IMG/VR virus record: IMGVR_UViG_3300023297_000059
Coordinates: 1-30,733 of that record
Length of the DNA stretch: 30,733 bases
Strand: one strand, 5' to 3'
Source: a virus
A program made the translations under genes and the position numbers. Shown here piece after piece: positions 6,900 through 15,112 of the stretch (positions are counted from its first letter, which is position 1; each line of letters begins with the position of its first letter). Below the pieces are notes generated by a model, which saw only the letters and a list, made by a program, of their open reading frames with translations, searched no databases and was not told the origin of the DNA.

Positions 6900-7724
6900 T
6901 TATTTCTTCTTATTGAGTACTTCTTCTTCTAAAGTCATACTATGCTCTTTAAGTATAGTCTTTTCGATGAAACGCTCAAGGTTTGTTTGAAAATTAACAC
7001 TGTCACGAGAACATTGCTTGATGGTTAGGTCTCTATCTTGATTAAGACTACTTTCGATACTAGCAATAAAGCGTGAACCATCACTATTTATGTCTGATAG
7101 ATTAAAATCATCGATAAATTTTTGTGTTTCTTTATCTATTTTCTCAGGTTCTTTTTTAACCATCTCAAAATCAGCATCTTCGATAATTTCACCCTCGACA
7201 TATGCTGATCCTATGCAGTCAGAAAAGAGATCTTTTGCTAGGTTTGATAAACAACGATTAAAAAGCATCCTGGCAGGATACTTTTCCCAAATCCCACCTG
7301 CTTTCACTAATCCAGCTTTTTTTGCATGTTGTATTGTAAATATTGATTCAGCAGTATCACTGTTGTCTTTTCGTTTTCCACGTAATTGGCATACTTCATC
7401 ACTATGTACTATTTTTTGAATGCTATGACCTGCTTTTCTTATAAGCATCGACATACAGGAGGCAGCGAGCATGATTTTTCCTTGAACAAAATATACATTT
7501 CCATTCAACGCGCTCATAATTGGAATTCCTAATTCTCTGGCTGTTAACCAGATAGAAACAATTGCAGCCTCTCCGCCCATATTTTTGTAGTAAGGTGATG
7601 TAGCTACATACTTAGCCCATTGGCTGAGCATCTTTGCCTCCTCACCCATTGGTAAATAACTACCCGTTCCTAGTGTAGGTAATTTTTCTTCTCTAACTAT
7701 AATTTCTTTGCTTTCTTCACTCAT
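6900..7724 (-). CDS. recT: RecT-family single-strand annealing protein
   Basis: 274 residues, the usual RecT size. Residues about 43-90 show the family core: SPYYKNMGGEAAIVSIWLTA, then RELGIPIMSALNGNVYFVQG. It continues with the AKKAGL...WEKYPARMLFNR segment and LAKDLFSDCIG. RecT proteins anneal complementary single strands at resected ends and work with a 5'-3' exonuclease. The likely partner here is the PD-(D/E)XK protein two genes upstream, and the adjacent DUF1351-like gene is a common companion. The gene starts 26 nt after that gene stops, with AAAGGAG before the ATG. Identity rests on pattern recognition by eye. Confidence 0.8.
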   Translation of the reverse strand: MSEESKEIIVREEKLPTLGTGSYLPMGEEAKMLSQWAKYVATSPYYKNMGGEAAIVSIWLTARELGIPIMSALNGNVYFVQGKIMLAASCMSMLIRKAGHSIQKIVHSDEVCQLRGKRKDNSDTAESIFTIQHAKKAGLVKAGGIWEKYPARMLFNRCLSNLAKDLFSDCIGSAYVEGEIIEDADFEMVKKEPEKIDKETQKFIDDFNLSDINSDGSRFIASIESSLNQDRDLTIKQCSRDSVNFQTNLERFIEKTILKEHSMTLEEEVLNKKK

Positions 7725-7749
7725 TGTTTTTCTCCTTTAATTTAATTAA

Positions 7750-8670
7750 CTATTTTACCCTAAATCTCTCTTTACGTTCTTCATAAATTTTTACTCCGGG
7801 GATAATTCTTACTCCGGCTTTGACAGCTTCTTTAATGGCCTTCTCGTTAACTTGCATATATTCTAGTGGGATAATTTTATTATCTTCTATAGCATAAACC
7901 CATTCAACTATAGTAACCATTGAACCATCTTCGGTAGAAATCTTTTTAGGTGGTGTCACAAACACCTCTTTTTCAGGGATCACTACCTCTTTTATTTCTT
8001 CTACTTCTTTGTTATTTTTAATAGCTTCTACCTTTTTCAATGCATTCTCTTTAGCTATTCTTTCATTTTCTTTTGCTACTCTTTCTCTCTCAAGTTTTTG
8101 TTTAGCTTCAAATTCTTTTCTTAGAATATCTTCTTTAATTTTGTTATGTGTTCCTATCTTTTTTGTAATAGAAGTCTCAATATCCTTAAGACATTTTGTA
8201 AATTCGTCAGCGTACTGCTTAACAGCTTTTTGAAACGATATGTGAGGGGCAACAATAGCTTTTCTAGCCTTTTCAATAGAATTGCCCATCTTGCGTGACT
8301 GCATTGCGATACTTGTACCGTAATTGGCATCTTCGTCGGTTTCGATAATAAACGCTTCAGCCTTGGCAACAAGCTCGCCAACATTATCGCCATCGAGCTT
8401 TGACTTAGCGAGAGTAAGATTAAATACATCGGGTTTTACAGCAATAATTATGCCGTTATCTTTTATTGGTGCTAATTCTTTTAATGCTTGTTTTTGTTTT
8501 TCGTCGTATTCCATACCTTCATAAAAAGAGCGTACTGCTGCTTTTTGTTCTAGCACTTCTTCTAACGTATTTTTGGTTGGTTCATGTTTTTCAATTACCT
8601 CACCTGTATCTTTATCACAATTTGCTTCTGCAACATCCATTTTATCAAAAATATAATCATAATCTATCAT
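7750..8670 (-). CDS. DUF1351-like coiled-coil protein of the recombination operon
   Basis: 306 residues. The middle (about 130-215) is a long charged coiled coil (FEAKQKLERERVAKENERIA), and the C-terminus ends in an IIPGVKIYEERK segment typical of DUF1351-like phage proteins encoded beside recT. The function in these modules is not established; a scaffold between nuclease and annealing protein is a reasonable guess. The ATG (8670) overlaps the stop of the tiny membrane gene in ATGA, and AGAGGA lies just upstream inside that gene. Confidence 0.7.
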   Translation of the reverse strand: MIDYDYIFDKMDVAEANCDKDTGEVIEKHEPTKNTLEEVLEQKAAVRSFYEGMEYDEKQKQALKELAPIKDNGIIIAVKPDVFNLTLAKSKLDGDNVGELVAKAEAFIIETDEDANYGTSIAMQSRKMGNSIEKARKAIVAPHISFQKAVKQYADEFTKCLKDIETSITKKIGTHNKIKEDILRKEFEAKQKLERERVAKENERIAKENALKKVEAIKNNKEVEEIKEVVIPEKEVFVTPPKKISTEDGSMVTIVEWVYAIEDNKIIPLEYMQVNEKAIKEAVKAGVRIIPGVKIYEERKERFRVK

Positions 8671-8768
8671 ATATACATTCCTCTCATGTTAATAATATTT
8701 AAAAAAAAACATGCTACTACCGTTAGAATTACTAAAAATTCCCACGTCCATAATAAAAAGTTAAACAT
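8667..8768 (-). CDS. 33-residue single-pass membrane protein
   Basis: This small gene starts at ATG 8768-8766, overlapping the stop of the zinc-finger gene, with AAAGGAGG just before it. It ends in TGA at 8669-8667, overlapping the next start (ATGA). The product begins MFNFLLWTWEFLVILTVVAC and continues FFLNIINMRGMYI, i.e. one hydrophobic helix over residues 3-26. Both overlaps, the strong ribosome site and the absence of any other use for the 98-nt gap support a real gene. The role is unknown; a membrane anchor, a holin-like or an exclusion peptide are possible. Confidence 0.7.
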   Translation of the reverse strand: MFNFLLWTWEFLVILTVVACFFLNIINMRGMYI

Positions 8769-8979
8769 CTTCTTCCTCCTTTCTCGCCTGTATACCTTCT
8801 GTCAAATCTCCAATACATTTTTTTGAACAAAAGTTTTTATTCTTATCTAAGTAACTACCCCATAATTCATCATCATGAAAATTTTTTCCGCATTGGTCAC
8901 ACTTTATAGTCTTTGGACTATTAATATCATCGTGCAATCTATCCGTATAGCGTTCGTATTGCTCATCTATATTACGCAT
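8761..8979 (-). CDS. Small zinc-finger protein
   Basis: 72 residues. Cys27-x2-Cys30 (CDQCGKNF) and Cys51-x3-Cys55 (CSKKC) form a likely treble-clef zinc site; the flanks are charged and helical. It overlaps the nuclease gene upstream by 8 nt (8972-8979) and the tiny membrane gene downstream. This position in the recombination operon suggests a DNA- or protein-binding accessory, but that is inference. Confidence 0.7.
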   Translation of the reverse strand: MRNIDEQYERYTDRLHDDINSPKTIKCDQCGKNFHDDELWGSYLDKNKNFCSKKCIGDLTEGIQARKEEEDV

Positions 8980-9526
8980 TGAAAAACCTATGTGCTTTGA
9001 GAATTCCTAAATATAAATCCAAGTCATTATCGCTAGTATACTCGCATACTTTCGGTGGTTTTCCATCCTTTTTCAGCATGAGAGCTATTCTTCTTTCGGC
9101 AGCAATGGCAGTGCTTTTATCATGGTTATATAGATATTTGTAAGCGGCTAATTGCAACCTAAATGTCTTGCTTTCTGTTGCTGGTGTTTTTATATCAATG
9201 ATAACAGGGGTAGTTGATCCACGAATCGCACATACTATGTCAATCGCTCCTGTTAGCATTAGCTCGTCATTATATATTCGTTGCTCTGTGCTTATCAATT
9301 TATCTACCATTTTATCGTACCAGCCACGAAAACTGTTTAGGTAGCCTAATAGGCTTTCGTCAGGCTCGGGGAAGTATTCGTCTAGCATATGTAACTCACA
9401 CAGTAAATGCACTCTTGTACCTCTCTCGCATGCGTTATGTAGTGTCACAGGGTTTATGTGATCGAAGCTAACGTATGGAGAAAATATACTTGTAACTCTG
9501 GTAAACTGTTCTCTTATGCTTTCCAT
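8972..9526 (-). CDS. PD-(D/E)XK nuclease (RecB/Cas4-like), probable RecT partner
   Basis: 184 residues. The RecB-like motifs are in order: RGTRVH (His40), LTGAIDIV (Asp96), VIIDIKTP (Asp111-x-Lys113) and QLAAYKYL (Gln125, Tyr129). All expected catalytic residues are present. Such enzymes in recT operons resect 5' ends to expose single strands for annealing. It is the first gene of the leftward operon and is divergent from the Cro-like regulator. AGGA precedes the ATG at 9526. It could also have a more general nuclease role. Confidence 0.8.
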   Translation of the reverse strand: MESIREQFTRVTSIFSPYVSFDHINPVTLHNACERGTRVHLLCELHMLDEYFPEPDESLLGYLNSFRGWYDKMVDKLISTEQRIYNDELMLTGAIDIVCAIRGSTTPVIIDIKTPATESKTFRLQLAAYKYLYNHDKSTAIAAERRIALMLKKDGKPPKVCEYTSDNDLDLYLGILKAHRFFNA

Positions 9527-10961: not shown

Positions 10962-11708
10962 ATGGAATATTTAGAGAAAACAACAGATTATAATAAATTT
11001 AGTTTGATAGAAGGAAATAGAAAAATAAATAAAAACCATCTTCAAGCACTAAAAAAATCTATTACAGATAAAAATCTTTTACATTTAAACCCTATTTTAA
11101 TTGATAGAGATTTTTTAGTATTGGATGGTCAACATAGGTTAGAAGCTTGTAAAAATCTTGACATACCAGTTTTTTATAGAATTATAGAAGATACAGAGCT
11201 AAGGGCGGTTTGGCAATTAAACACAAATAGGAAAAATTGGAAGACAGAAGATTATTTAAATTTCTATATTGAATGTATCAAGGATAAAAATTATATAGCA
11301 TTGAAGGAGTTTATAGATAAACATTCACTTACACTAATTAAAACTTTTATTTTTTTAGGATTCAAATATAGAGCTAAAAAATATAAAGATACATTTATGC
11401 AGGGTGATTTTTGTTTTGATTTTGATATAGAAAATGTTGAAGATAGAATTTATAAATATAAAAATTTTATTGAATTCTGTGATAGTAGAGATTTAGATGG
11501 TTTTTCTTCTTTTTTGTTAGATACTTTTATTTTAGCCTTTTTAGATTTTATTGGTAGTAAAAAGATTCAATGGAATAAATTTTATAAACAAATAAAAGAA
11601 CACCCTACTTTGTTAGTTAGGTGTTACAATAGATTTCAGTTTTTAGAAATGTTGCTTAAATTATATAACAAAAATAGTTCGTATAAAATAGAAATATCTG
11701 ATTTATAA
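10962..11708 (+). CDS. ParB/sulfiredoxin-fold domain protein
   Basis: 248 residues. The N-terminal ParB-like domain (about 11-80) has the core FLVLDGQHRLEACKNLDIPV (GQHR at 56-59). The remaining 165 residues are helical and very Lys/Phe/Ile-rich, without a recognised domain; a ParB helix-turn-helix is not obvious. It is strongly AT-biased like the HNH gene before it, so the pair may have arrived together. Phage ParB-like proteins range from CTP-binding partition factors to nucleases and modification-linked enzymes; the role here is open. Confidence 0.7.
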   Translation: MEYLEKTTDYNKFSLIEGNRKINKNHLQALKKSITDKNLLHLNPILIDRDFLVLDGQHRLEACKNLDIPVFYRIIEDTELRAVWQLNTNRKNWKTEDYLNFYIECIKDKNYIALKEFIDKHSLTLIKTFIFLGFKYRAKKYKDTFMQGDFCFDFDIENVEDRIYKYKNFIEFCDSRDLDGFSSFLLDTFILAFLDFIGSKKIQWNKFYKQIKEHPTLLVRCYNRFQFLEMLLKLYNKNSSYKIEISDL

Positions 11709-13149: not shown

Positions 13150-13386
13150 ATGGCTACAGTAGCAGCTAGATATTTAAGAAATGGATCTATAACATGGCGA
13201 GTGCAATTTAGAAGAGTAGGGTGCCCTTGGTTTTCTAAGTCTTTTACGTCTAAAAAGGAAGCAAGAGAATATGCCATAATGCACGAAGCTTCTTTCATTG
13301 AAAATCCAGAAAAATATATTAGAGATCAAAACTTTTTAGAGGATATGCGAAAAAGAGAGTTTAAAAGAAAGCCTAGAGGTCTTTAA
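13150..13386 (+). CDS. Orphan integrase arm-type DNA-binding domain
   Basis: 78 residues from ATG 13150, chosen because AAGGAGG lies 6 nt upstream; an earlier in-frame ATG at 13123 has none. The pattern NGSITWRVQFRR, then WFSKSFTSKKEAREYA, matches the three-stranded arm-binding N-terminal domain of tyrosine integrases. No core-binding or catalytic domain follows: after EDMRKREFKRKPRGL the gene stops. It may be an integrase remnant or an independent DNA-binding protein, such as a Xis-like factor. It sits just before a gene-free region full of inverted repeats, which could be its target. Confidence 0.55.
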   Translation: MATVAARYLRNGSITWRVQFRRVGCPWFSKSFTSKKEAREYAIMHEASFIENPEKYIRDQNFLEDMRKREFKRKPRGL

Positions 13387-13396
13387 TCTAGGCTTT
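13368..13396 (+). terminator. Hairpin around the stop codon of the orphan arm-domain gene
   Basis: AAAGCCTAGA (13368-13377) pairs perfectly with TCTAGGCTTT (13387-13396), and the TAA stop lies in the 9-nt loop. The 3' arm ends in only three T, so termination may be partial. Confidence 0.5.
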
Positions 13397-13500
13397 CAAC
13401 TATATCGTATGGGATCCGTATGAGATCAAATTTATCTTGCTGTATCAAGCTTTTGATGGCAAGCAGCTTTTATGAAATTAAGTAGTTGTTAAAATGAAGA

Positions 13501-13541
13501 AGCCCCTAAAGAGCTGGTCTCTAGGGGCTATGTATTTTTTT
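13501..13541 (+). terminator. Rho-independent terminator
   Basis: AGCCCCTA (13501-13508) pairs with TAGGGGCT (13522-13529); a few nucleotides later comes a run of seven T. It would end the rightward transcript that began at the Cro-like gene, before the replication initiator. Confidence 0.85.
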
Positions 13542-13613
13542 GCTATTTCAATCCAAGTATTACTTGAACCAAATAACTTATCAAGTCTATGCTCAATACC
13601 AACAAAAAACAAC

Positions 13614-13704
13614 AATCAAAGATAGACTAACATATCTGTGTAATCAGCACAATATGTTATTTGAAAAACTAAATGAAGTCTCAGACTTTAGCCTATCTTT
13701 GATT
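13614..13704 (+). ncRNA. Candidate structured RNA or DNA element with three-way junction
   Basis: A perfect 12-bp closing stem, AATCAAAGATAG (13614-13625) with CTATCTTTGATT (13693-13704), encloses two hairpins. The first is AACATAT-c-TGTG with CACA-ATATGTT (13629-13658, 7-nt loop). The second is TGAAGTC-tca-GACTTTA (13674-13690, one G-U pair). No promoter or U-tract was identified, so it could be part of the leader of the replication gene or act as DNA. Confidence 0.45.
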
Positions 13705-13721
13705 TTCCTTCAACAAAAAAC

Positions 13722-13741
13722 GTAGTTAAAATATTAACTAC
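13722..13741. promoter_or_regulatory. Palindromic operator candidate before the replication gene
   Basis: GTAGTTAA-aata-TTAACTAC is perfectly symmetric and ends 24 nt before the ATG at 13766. A related half-site, GTAGTTgTTAAAAT, occurs near 13482-13495. A dimeric regulator such as the Cro-like protein could bind, but the 9527-9619 region has no obvious copy. Confidence 0.45.
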
Positions 13742-13765
13742 TAGCATTATAAAGGAAAGTTTACT

Positions 13766-14821
13766 ATGACATCATATCAATTAACTTCTGAAGTTACTGC
13801 AATAGGAGAAATCAGTGTGACAGGAAATGTAATTCCCTCTCATTGGTTGCAAGCTATAACATTCGATAACGGTAAGCCATATTTTGTAGCAGTAATGTTA
13901 TTAAGTGAGATTAGATATTGGTATACACCAACTGAAATAGAAGATGAAGAGACAGGACTTGTAGTCAAAGTAAAAAACAAATTTAAGGCAGATTTTCTTC
14001 AAAGGTCTACAAAAAAATTAGCTGAAAAATTTGGTTTTTCAGAAAAACAAGTAAAGGATGCGTTACGCTTTTTAGAGAAAAAAGGGTTCATAAAACGACA
14101 TTTTCGTACTATTTCATATGGTGATGGAATCGTAGCCTCTAACGTTCAGTTCATTGAGATTATTCCAGAATCAATAAGGAACATTCAAAAAATCCCTACC
14201 TATGGACGTGCAAGTCCTAGCGCCAGGACGTGCAAGTCCGAGGGGGAGGACACCCAGGGGGGGACGTATACAAAGAATACTACATCTATTACTACAAATA
14301 TTTATAAAGTCAATGAAGAGGCAAAGCCTCAGTCAATGCCCTCACAGAAAAAGAAGATTAAGAATCCAATAGACTTTCTTGAAACATCAGAAGAAAAAAA
14401 ATACTATCGTACTCTTATCAAGCTTGTTCCAGAGGAAGGGAAAAGTCTTGATCCTTCATCCGTGTCAGCATGGATAAAAGAGTTTGGAGTCTCTCGAGTA
14501 AAAGAATCAGTTATTGTGTACTGGGAACAAGTAGCTAAGTCTAAAAACGATGTAAAAGTACCAATTCCTAGAGAAGCAGGGGGTTATATTCGCAATATAT
14601 TAAATAATCTTACGATAAAGCCTGAAAATGATAACACTAGAATGAATAAAGAATATGCTAAAGAGCTATCTAAAAATAACTTACATGTAAAAGCGTTGGA
14701 TAAGTACGCTAAAATAGAAGCTGGCTCTTTCATTGATGAGATTTATTATAACGCACCACCAGAAGCCTTCAAAAAGTGGTTGAATGATAAGATTGAAGCA
14801 TCAAAAGAATATGCTGCTTGA
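13766..14821 (+). CDS. Replication initiator, lambda O-like organisation
   Basis: 351 residues with AAAGGAAAG before the ATG. The N-terminal region (about 20-135) contains a winged helix: STKKLAEKFGFSEKQVKDAL, then RFLEKKGFIKRHF. A polar linker follows at about 141-172, and its DNA holds regularly spaced GGAC boxes (14204-14265). The C-terminal part (from about 205) is a soluble helical domain, FLETSEEKKYYRTLIKLVPE onward. This order, an origin-binding domain, a linker encoding the origin and a C-terminal helicase-recruiting domain, matches lambda O-type initiators. No helicase or loader gene follows, so host helicase is probably used. Confidence 0.65.
   Translation: MTSYQLTSEVTAIGEISVTGNVIPSHWLQAITFDNGKPYFVAVMLLSEIRYWYTPTEIEDEETGLVVKVKNKFKADFLQRSTKKLAEKFGFSEKQVKDALRFLEKKGFIKRHFRTISYGDGIVASNVQFIEIIPESIRNIQKIPTYGRASPSARTCKSEGEDTQGGTYTKNTTSITTNIYKVNEEAKPQSMPSQKKKIKNPIDFLETSEEKKYYRTLIKLVPEEGKSLDPSSVSAWIKEFGVSRVKESVIVYWEQVAKSKNDVKVPIPREAGGYIRNILNNLTIKPENDNTRMNKEYAKELSKNNLHVKALDKYAKIEAGSFIDEIYYNAPPEAFKKWLNDKIEASKEYAA
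14204..14330. other. Putative replication origin inside the initiator gene
   Basis: GGACGTGCAAGTCC occurs at 14204-14217 and 14226-14239. Each copy is a near-palindrome (GGAC-n-TGCA-n-GTCC). A degenerate GGAC box follows at 14248, making a 22-bp period, and another GGACGT at 14262. The G-rich iteron block is unlike the surrounding AT-rich gene. It is followed by about 60 bp of very AT-rich sequence (CTACAAATATTTATAAAG), suited to strand opening. Confidence 0.65.
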
Positions 14822-14831
14822 TTAAAAAGCA

Positions 14832-14860
14832 TTGACGTATATATAGCCTTAATGTAACAT
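14832..14860 (+). promoter_or_regulatory. Sigma70-like promoter before the Hc1-like gene
   Basis: TTGACG (14832-14837), 17-nt spacer, TAACAT (14855-14860). It begins 10 nt after the initiator gene ends and lies about 34 nt before the ATG at 14894. TAACAT and ATGTTA form a small inverted repeat across the start-site region. Confidence 0.6.
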
Positions 14861-14893
14861 GTATTGCATTAATGTTAACGAGAGGATAAACAA

Positions 14894-15112
14894 ATGATTA
14901 AGAAAGAATACACTAGAGAAGATAAATTTGTAGATTTAGTAAACGATATTATCATTTTACTTGCCGATATCAGGAAAAATATACATAAGTCCATGAGTGG
15001 AAATAAAGCAGCAGCTAGGAAGGCAAGAGTCTTGCTTGTAAAGCTTGCAAAGAAAGGCAAATATTACCGAAGTCTTTCAATTATACATGTTCCAACGATC
15101 ACGAAAGGATAA
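14894..15112 (+). CDS. Hc1-like histone H1-family protein
   Basis: 72 residues with AGAGGA before the ATG. The core, residues about 13-60, resembles the N-terminal domain of chlamydial histone H1-like Hc1: FVDLVNDIIILLADIRKNI, then SGNKAAARKARVLLVKLAKK, then YYRSLSI. The family signature GNKAAA-x-R is followed by a basic helix; the long Lys/Ala tail of chlamydial Hc1 is absent. Hc1-type proteins bind and compact DNA. A separate promoter and position next to the origin suggest a role in phage DNA organisation, host nucleoid control or replication timing. The fold call rests on pattern recognition by eye. Confidence 0.65.
   Translation: MIKKEYTREDKFVDLVNDIIILLADIRKNIHKSMSGNKAAARKARVLLVKLAKKGKYYRSLSIIHVPTITKG

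Follow-up and report, generated by a model that had tools for sequence, protein, structure and literature searches.

A putative phage replication origin with 22-bp-spaced iterons within the linker of the phage's initiator gene

Does the initiator gene of this phage carry, within its own coding sequence, the origin at which its product would act? The question arises from a virus record of 30,733 bases (IMGVR_UViG_3300023297_000059; hereafter the window, meaning the whole stretch of DNA that was analyzed), which has 99.98% identity to IMGVR_UViG_3300005918_000057 across 11,053 bases. A first-pass annotation had proposed an origin with 22-bp iterons inside the initiator gene, following the same logic as lambda O.

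Lambda O and SPP1 gene 38 are established examples of intragenic iteron origins. Two papers on lambda place the origin inside the O gene, with dyad iterons followed by an AT-rich tract (PMC7466680, PMC5043065), and a paper on SPP1 describes oriL as direct repeats and an AT-rich unwinding element within the gp38 gene, bound by the product of that gene (PMC6316719).

Here we found that 14204–14302 is very probably a phage replication origin within the linker of its own initiator gene, and we refer to it as the putative origin (Table 1). Its position, periodicity, dyads, register, constraint at the DNA level and covariation with the helix-turn-helix were shown computationally. The proposal gains its support from the repeats, the dyads and the register that relatives have in common.

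Table 1. Coordinates in the window of the initiator gene, its domains and the elements of the putative origin
Feature	Position	Strand	Remarks
Initiator gene	13766..14821	+	351 aa; phrog_270 'replication initiation protein', E 2.8e-15
N-terminal winged-helix domain	13766..14203	+	residues 1-146
Helix 93-105, candidate recognition helix	14042..14080	+	AlphaFold2 helix; within residues 83-107, the stretch whose divergence best tracks that of the iterons
Linker, predicted disordered, carrying the putative origin	14204..14359	+	residues 147-198; pLDDT below 50
Iteron 1, GGACGTGCAAGTCC	14204..14217	+	dyad 6/7; centre -59 from the AT-rich element
Iteron 2, 14-mer identical to iteron 1	14226..14239	+	dyad 6/7; centre -37
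Iteron 3 position, degenerate	14248..14261	+	centre -15, in register; dyad 1/7
8-bp leader GGACGTAT of the AT-rich element	14262..14269	+	corresponds to GACAAAT/GACATAT/GACGTAT of relatives, ahead of ACARAG
Putative DNA unwinding element core	14270..14302	+	TACTACA at 12-bp spacing; wobble constrained in relatives
AT-rich tract	14270..14329	+	28% GC
C-terminal domain	14360..14818	+	match only in L014 among 84 relatives

The initiator and its domains

The match of the initiator to the phrog_270 profile spans residues 7–190, covering the N-terminal domain and the linker, and places the protein in this family. Further PHROG matches were to 'O-like' phrog_391 (E 5.5e-7), phrog_345 (1.5e-5), phrog_678 (1.4e-4) and DnaD-like helicase loaders (phrog_186, E 6.6e-7). 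The N-terminal ~145 residues show 39–49% identity to seven phage initiators (Geobacillus, Acinetobacter, Eggerthella, Bacillus PM1, SpaA1, Exiguobacterium). In the AlphaFold2 model, 10-residue blocks have a pLDDT of 82–98 up to residue 140, and the start of iteron 1 coincides with the end of predicted order. Because codon 147 begins at 14204 and the pLDDT stays low over the whole linker, the boxes fall between the winged-helix and C-terminal domains, where the first-pass annotation had put them.

A search by sequence for solved relatives of the initiator gave a best E of 0.01, and a Foldseek search against the PDB gave no match below E 0.001. Weak fold resemblance was seen to the B. subtilis DnaD N-terminal domain (2v79) and to the plasmid-type initiators 4pql, 4pt7 and 5kbj (Foldseek E 0.036–0.058), and the DnaD_N domain scored 14.8 bits in the window initiator against a cut-off of 27. 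The plasmid-type initiators include staphylococcal RepA. In BFVD, the best match by fold was the initiator of Bacillus phage PM1 (E 5.8e-14). The C-terminal part gave a single 12.5-bit match against Pfam, far under the cut-off, and no DnaB_2; this domain may have a helicase-recruiting role. No helicase match was found among the 20 window proteins scanned against PHROGs (109 open reading frames of at least 50 aa were listed).

Upstream of the initiator gene, the window carries a ParB-like gene (10962–11705; phrog_12305, E 1.4e-24). A 17-nt inverted repeat before the initiator gene (13614–13630 and 13688–13704, 94% complementary, 57 nt apart) is possibly an operator or an RNA element. On the minus strand, 6900–9526 encodes a RecT-like annealing protein and an exonuclease, and a large part of this stretch has a negative GC skew. 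The GC-skew switch suggested at the site of the boxes did not appear: in 500-base windows, the skew is about zero at 13.25–14.0 kb and positive on either side.

Two iterons and a degenerate third position in the linker

GGAC occurs at 14204, 14226, 14248 and 14262, and the first two occurrences begin identical 14-mers spaced by 22 bp, exactly as the first-pass annotation had reported. Its array of four boxes held only in part. Two good iterons remain, and box 3 is in register at the third position but degenerate, having only GGAC in common with iterons 1 and 2. Box 4 was rejected as an iteron, as it lies 14 and not 22 bp past box 3 and represents the leader of the AT-rich element. No further copy of GGACGTGCAAGTCC with up to 3 mismatches was found in the whole 30,733-base record.

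The G-rich block does stand out in a low-GC gene: 14204–14265 has 69% GC, compared with 35% for the whole initiator gene, and only 2 of 30,671 62-bp windows in the record, this one included, are as GC-rich. When the codons of the window gene were shuffled synonymously, an exact 14-mer repeat within 60 bp arose in 66 of 20,000 shuffles. The window alone beats chance only moderately, at about p = 0.003, and the relatives carry the weight.

We considered whether the repeats might act as an RNA or single-strand hairpin, that is, an attenuator or a primosome-type ssDNA signal. In the ssDNA fold of 14195–14275 the two 14-mers do pair with each other, with z −3.2 on the plus strand (0 of 200 shuffles as stable) and z −2.4 on the minus strand (5 of 200). 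However, direct repeats of an imperfect palindrome fold in this way anyway, and a 22-bp phasing fits binding to duplex DNA. Further, no Rfam family reached its gathering score at 13300–14900, and no terminator-like site was found on the plus strand at 13300–15000. We therefore regard a hairpin function as very unlikely.

A period of about 22 bp in the linkers of relatives

Relatives of the N-terminal domain were drawn from the best 80 of 288 viral contigs and the best 80 of 282 species genomes, together with 10 of 40 matched phage records. The resulting 169 genes, with the window included, came to 85 after removal of near-duplicates, and 83 of these had enough linker. The analysis excluded L002 and L013, which come from the window's own virus, as well as L012, from an Acinetobacter phage closely resembling L006. 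A regular expression for the AT-rich element anchored 70 of the 85 genes (the misses include L007 from Eggerthella, L122, L160 and L166), and five more (L072, L088, L100, L136 and L164) were dropped by eye as misanchored, giving 65 genes, 64 of them complete. In L163 (Thermoanaerobacterium butyriciformans), the initiator reading frame is unusually long at 1055 aa, and a 1051-aa stretch of it gave only a weak HTH_36 match against Pfam.

Self-identity within the 83 linkers was found at a shift of 22 in 23 genes, 23 in 18 genes, 24 in 7 genes, 44 in 20 genes and 45 in 8 genes. Synonymous shuffles of the same linkers gave means of 0.3, 0.2, 0.45 and 2.8 genes at shifts 22, 23, 44 and 45, and at these four shifts no gene scored in the 300 nt that precede the linker (83 genes) or in the region after it (71 genes). 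A shift of 12, seen in 28 of the 83 genes (shuffles 6.4), had its source in the AT-rich repeats. Taking shifts 21–25 and 43–47 without the multiples of three, a repeat was present in 49 of 83 genes (shuffles mean 0.9, max 3), compared with 1 of 83 at control shifts. Since 22 leaves a remainder of one when divided by three, successive copies are read in different frames, and a period that is not a multiple of three indicates that the repeats are kept as DNA, not as peptide.

The first-pass annotation had named relatives with the same initiator but no periodic GGAC boxes as evidence against an origin: the 49 genes repeat at about 22 bp, and the other 34, which are below the threshold, count against the reading. 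Among these 34, L081, L138 and L149 have two or three in-register dyads each. The 22-bp boxes of L014 are too short for the repeat threshold, and in the Eggerthella gene L007 no array was seen by eye.

L014 is the closest relative found within this sample. Its boxes, CAGGTCG, CAAGTCG and CAGGTCG, are found at positions 484, 506 and 528 of the gene, with a spacing of exactly 22 bp; they have the core CA(A/G)GTC in common with CAAGTCC of the window and are 3 bp nearer the AT-rich element. That boxes would be conserved while the linker protein drifts was borne out here, with identity at 3 of 20 residues in the linker peptide and at 88 of 146 in the N-terminal part.

These comparisons also bear on the idea that the repeats merely reflect a low-complexity or tandem-repeat peptide linker without DNA function. 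The linker is predicted to be disordered, and a TT-rich peptide recurs in the linkers of relatives, as such an idea would have it. But a period of 22–23 is not a multiple of three and is lost in synonymous shuffles, third codon bases are constrained, and 22-bp boxes occur in the window as well as in L014, whose linker peptides agree at 3 of 20 residues. A repeat at the protein level is contradicted by the synonymous-shuffle controls, and we give a purely peptide origin of the array next to no credence.

Dyads in register with an AT-rich element

We scored 14-bp dyads at positions counted from ACARAG of the AT-rich element and compared the scores with synonymous shuffles. Across the 65 genes, the mean dyad score peaked at −15, −37, −59 and −81, exactly 22 apart, with z of 8.2, 7.7, 4.8 and 4.0, respectively, and the two 14-mers of the window are centred on the family peaks −59 and −37. 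At least one in-register dyad was present in 34 of 65 genes (shuffles mean 12, max 19) and at least two in 12 of 65 (mean 2.0, max 5); 31 of 65 had no dyad of at least 5/7 in exact register. Additional dyad peaks were observed at −26 (z 5.2) and at several positions within the AT-rich repeats, of which +15 was the highest (z 12.0). Relatives share the 22-bp register to the AT-rich element, and it is the family, not the window alone, that settles the question of chance. The same register in repeats and dyads agrees with the earlier suggestion that the G-rich block is kept for a DNA function.

In the window, about 60 bp of AT-rich DNA was said to follow the boxes, which matches the tract in Table 1; within it, 14270–14313 has 20% GC. 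Similar AT-rich elements, typically GACAAAT-ACAGAGAATACTACAGAGATTACTACA, close the linkers of the 70 anchored genes of 85. Relative to each gene's own codon usage, third codon bases deviate at codons −12 to +30 (z 3.1–9.8, 65 genes), and the constraint is gone by +33 (z 0.6). The third base is A at codon +0 in 63 of 65 genes (38% expected), G at codon +3 in 57 (34%), T at codon +6 in all 65 (45%), A at codon +12 in 56 (36%) and T at codon +18 in 59 (41%). The anchoring pattern itself partly dictates the first and second bases close to the anchor, but it leaves third bases free. The AT-rich element is constrained as DNA at its wobble bases over ~11 codons.

Alternatively, the dyads may be an operator through which the initiator or another phage regulator controls transcription through its own gene, with replication starting elsewhere. 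Dyads of this kind do resemble dimer-binding sites, and an initiator-specific site could autoregulate as a roadblock inside the gene. This explanation, however, leaves unaccounted for the fixed distance to an AT-rich element with its wobble-constrained codons, and promoter-like sites at 13300–15000 are at chance level (6 found, 6.0 expected). We consider an operator unlikely.

Distribution of the AT-rich element

A pattern search for the element returned 66 viral loci, with the longest open stretch in the same frame in 65 of them. When 28 clusters of these loci were read by eye, 26 had the initiator N-terminal domain, and the rest were L204 and L226. In L204 (IMGVR_UViG_2855402528_000001), the motif lies at 2679 on the reverse complement, where two iterons and the element are flanked by other genes that look structural, and the only open stretch at the element is 49 aa; the locus may be an extra, free-standing origin of the SPP1 oriR kind, or a scar left by recombination. 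In L226 (IMGVR_UViG_2848317263_000002, 5698), stops interrupt the initiator gene, one of them within the AT-rich element, and one iteron and the element are kept despite them.

A leaderless form of the pattern gave 34 loci, all 34 in one frame, of which 26 match the N-terminal profile (E below 1e-3). In L255, L264 and L268 the open stretches start in the linker. L243, L244, L245, L248 and L272 have the 12-bp TACTACA repeats in the coding frame of initiator-like proteins with a different N-terminal domain; four of these five, tested against a richer profile, reached E values between 3e-4 and 0.02 (set of 7), which makes a remote kinship of their N-terminal domains possible. Scans with a single protein, and with the window's own element, returned only the window's own virus.

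We tentatively propose, as an idea that we would not yet call probable, that the AT-rich element (GAC-A-ATACARAGA plus TACTACA at 12-bp steps) may be a portable, sequence-specific opening module read in single-stranded form by a conserved factor. It would have spread between phages from different bacterial phyla and between initiators of different type, nearly always in one frame, with the upstream iterons and the downstream helicase-binding domains swapped around it; the fixed linker peptide would be a by-product of selection on the DNA.

Covariation with the helix-turn-helix and exchange of C-terminal domains

Dyads that serve as sites for the initiator itself would be expected to change with its recognition helix. 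We slid 15-residue blocks along the N-terminal domain and calculated partial correlations after removing the rest of that domain. The blocks within residues 83–107, which contain part of AlphaFold2 helix 82–89 and helix 93–105, tracked the divergence of iteron 6-mers best (partial r −0.22 to −0.24), and helix 93–105 may be the recognition helix. With 26 representatives of less than 60% identity, the block from residue 92 (r −0.19) was reached in 0 of 1000 permutations that ignore the tree; under the same permutations, blocks from residues 40, 60 and 110 were reached in 224, 662 and 203 of 1000. The AT-rich zone, included as a control, shows correlations as well (residues 88–102, r −0.24; 68–87, about −0.21), so the covariation with the helix-turn-helix is not unique to the iterons. 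At the level of sequence comparison, and with permutations that ignore the tree, the iterons were shown computationally to diverge together with the initiator helix-turn-helix.

A partition (parS-like) or recombination site might be suspected from the ParB-like gene in the window. Yet the array goes with the initiator family, and the iterons covary with the initiator's own helix-turn-helix. Geobacillus phage PT9.1 and Bacillus phage PM1 have clear arrays, and no ParB-like name occurs among 75 PT9.1 features or 85 of the 86 PM1 features, many of which are 'hypothetical'. Such a site is extremely improbable in our view.

Clustering of the 64 complete genes with phmmer (E below 1e-3) put all N-terminal parts into 1 cluster and split the C-terminal parts into 15. 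The 33 members scanned include 7 with DUF6017, 3 with Phg_2220_C and 3 with DnaB_2, and the relative L003 carries DnaB_2. Lying between the domains, the site would remain linked to its protein through recombination events that exchange the helicase-facing domain.

Comparison with known origins

The lambda record annotates four iterons at 39034–39118, with start-to-start distances of 20, 24 and 23 bp. Like the window with its sequence features, lambda has iterons midway within the initiator gene and an AT-rich tract flanking them. By contrast, the iteron sequence, the AT-rich sequence and the spacing differ, lambda has four clear iterons, and the lambda O N-terminal domain has no detectable homology to that of the window (hhalign probability 0.4%, E 0.14). 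The likeness to lambda O drawn in the first-pass annotation, same logic and different sequence, is one of anatomy.

SPP1 likewise has direct repeats and an unwinding element inside its initiator gene, gene 38 (PMC6316719). SPP1 has a second origin, oriR, and none was found in the 30.7-kb window record, which is possibly a fragment: no second copy of the iteron or of the AT-rich element with up to 3 mismatches occurs there beyond the known cluster. At the same tolerance, no second origin was seen in PT9.1 or in the first 50,000 of the 50,861 bases of PM1, and one 3-mismatch match in PT9.1 at 13342 was taken as chance. For Francisella phage vB_FhiM_KIRK, the authors describe four repeats in an AT-rich region at the replication gene ORF43 as 'comparable' with lambda (PMC7924643), and this putative origin resembles that of the window by description.

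Other parallels are homologous. PT9.1 gp41, PM1 ORF9 and gp51 of Acinetobacter phage IME-AB2 have a homologous N-terminal domain, iterons at 22–23 bp and the same AT-rich element, and they differ from the window in iteron sequence and C-terminal cluster. In the stretches of the three records examined, a replication initiation protein is annotated and no origin. Origin papers also exist for the lactococcal phages Tuc2009 and phi31. In the open-access papers surveyed, we found no description of origins in the phrog_270-type initiator family or of the TACTACAGAGA element, nor of a family-wide 22-bp register, a wobble-constrained element or covariation of helix-turn-helix and iterons, although silence in those papers is weak evidence of absence.

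A model for initiation and its implications

How might the putative origin work? Modelled on what the lambda and SPP1 papers describe for initiator–iteron binding, strain-driven melting and helicase recruitment (PMC7466680, PMC5043065, PMC6316719), dimers of the winged-helix N-terminal domain would bind the 22-bp-spaced dyads, two strong and one degenerate that adjoins the AT-rich DNA. All bound dimers would occupy the same face of the DNA. The resulting nucleoprotein complex would then strain the adjacent AT-rich element until it melts, and the C-terminal domain would recruit the helicase. By this analogy we infer binding, melting, helicase recruitment and use of the site as an origin. As a counterpoint, the window has two good iterons only, and it is the degenerate box 3 that lies nearest the AT-rich DNA.

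If the model is true, the replication origin could be placed from sequence alone in many phages and prophages of Firmicutes and Proteobacteria; the phage and prophage records examined have no origin annotated where this was checked. The family would also offer a naturally occurring set of helix-turn-helix variants, each paired with its DNA sites, from which a specificity code might be read. Finally, selection on the DNA would dictate the peptide, and the TNTEITTE-like linker may exist because its codons are the origin element.
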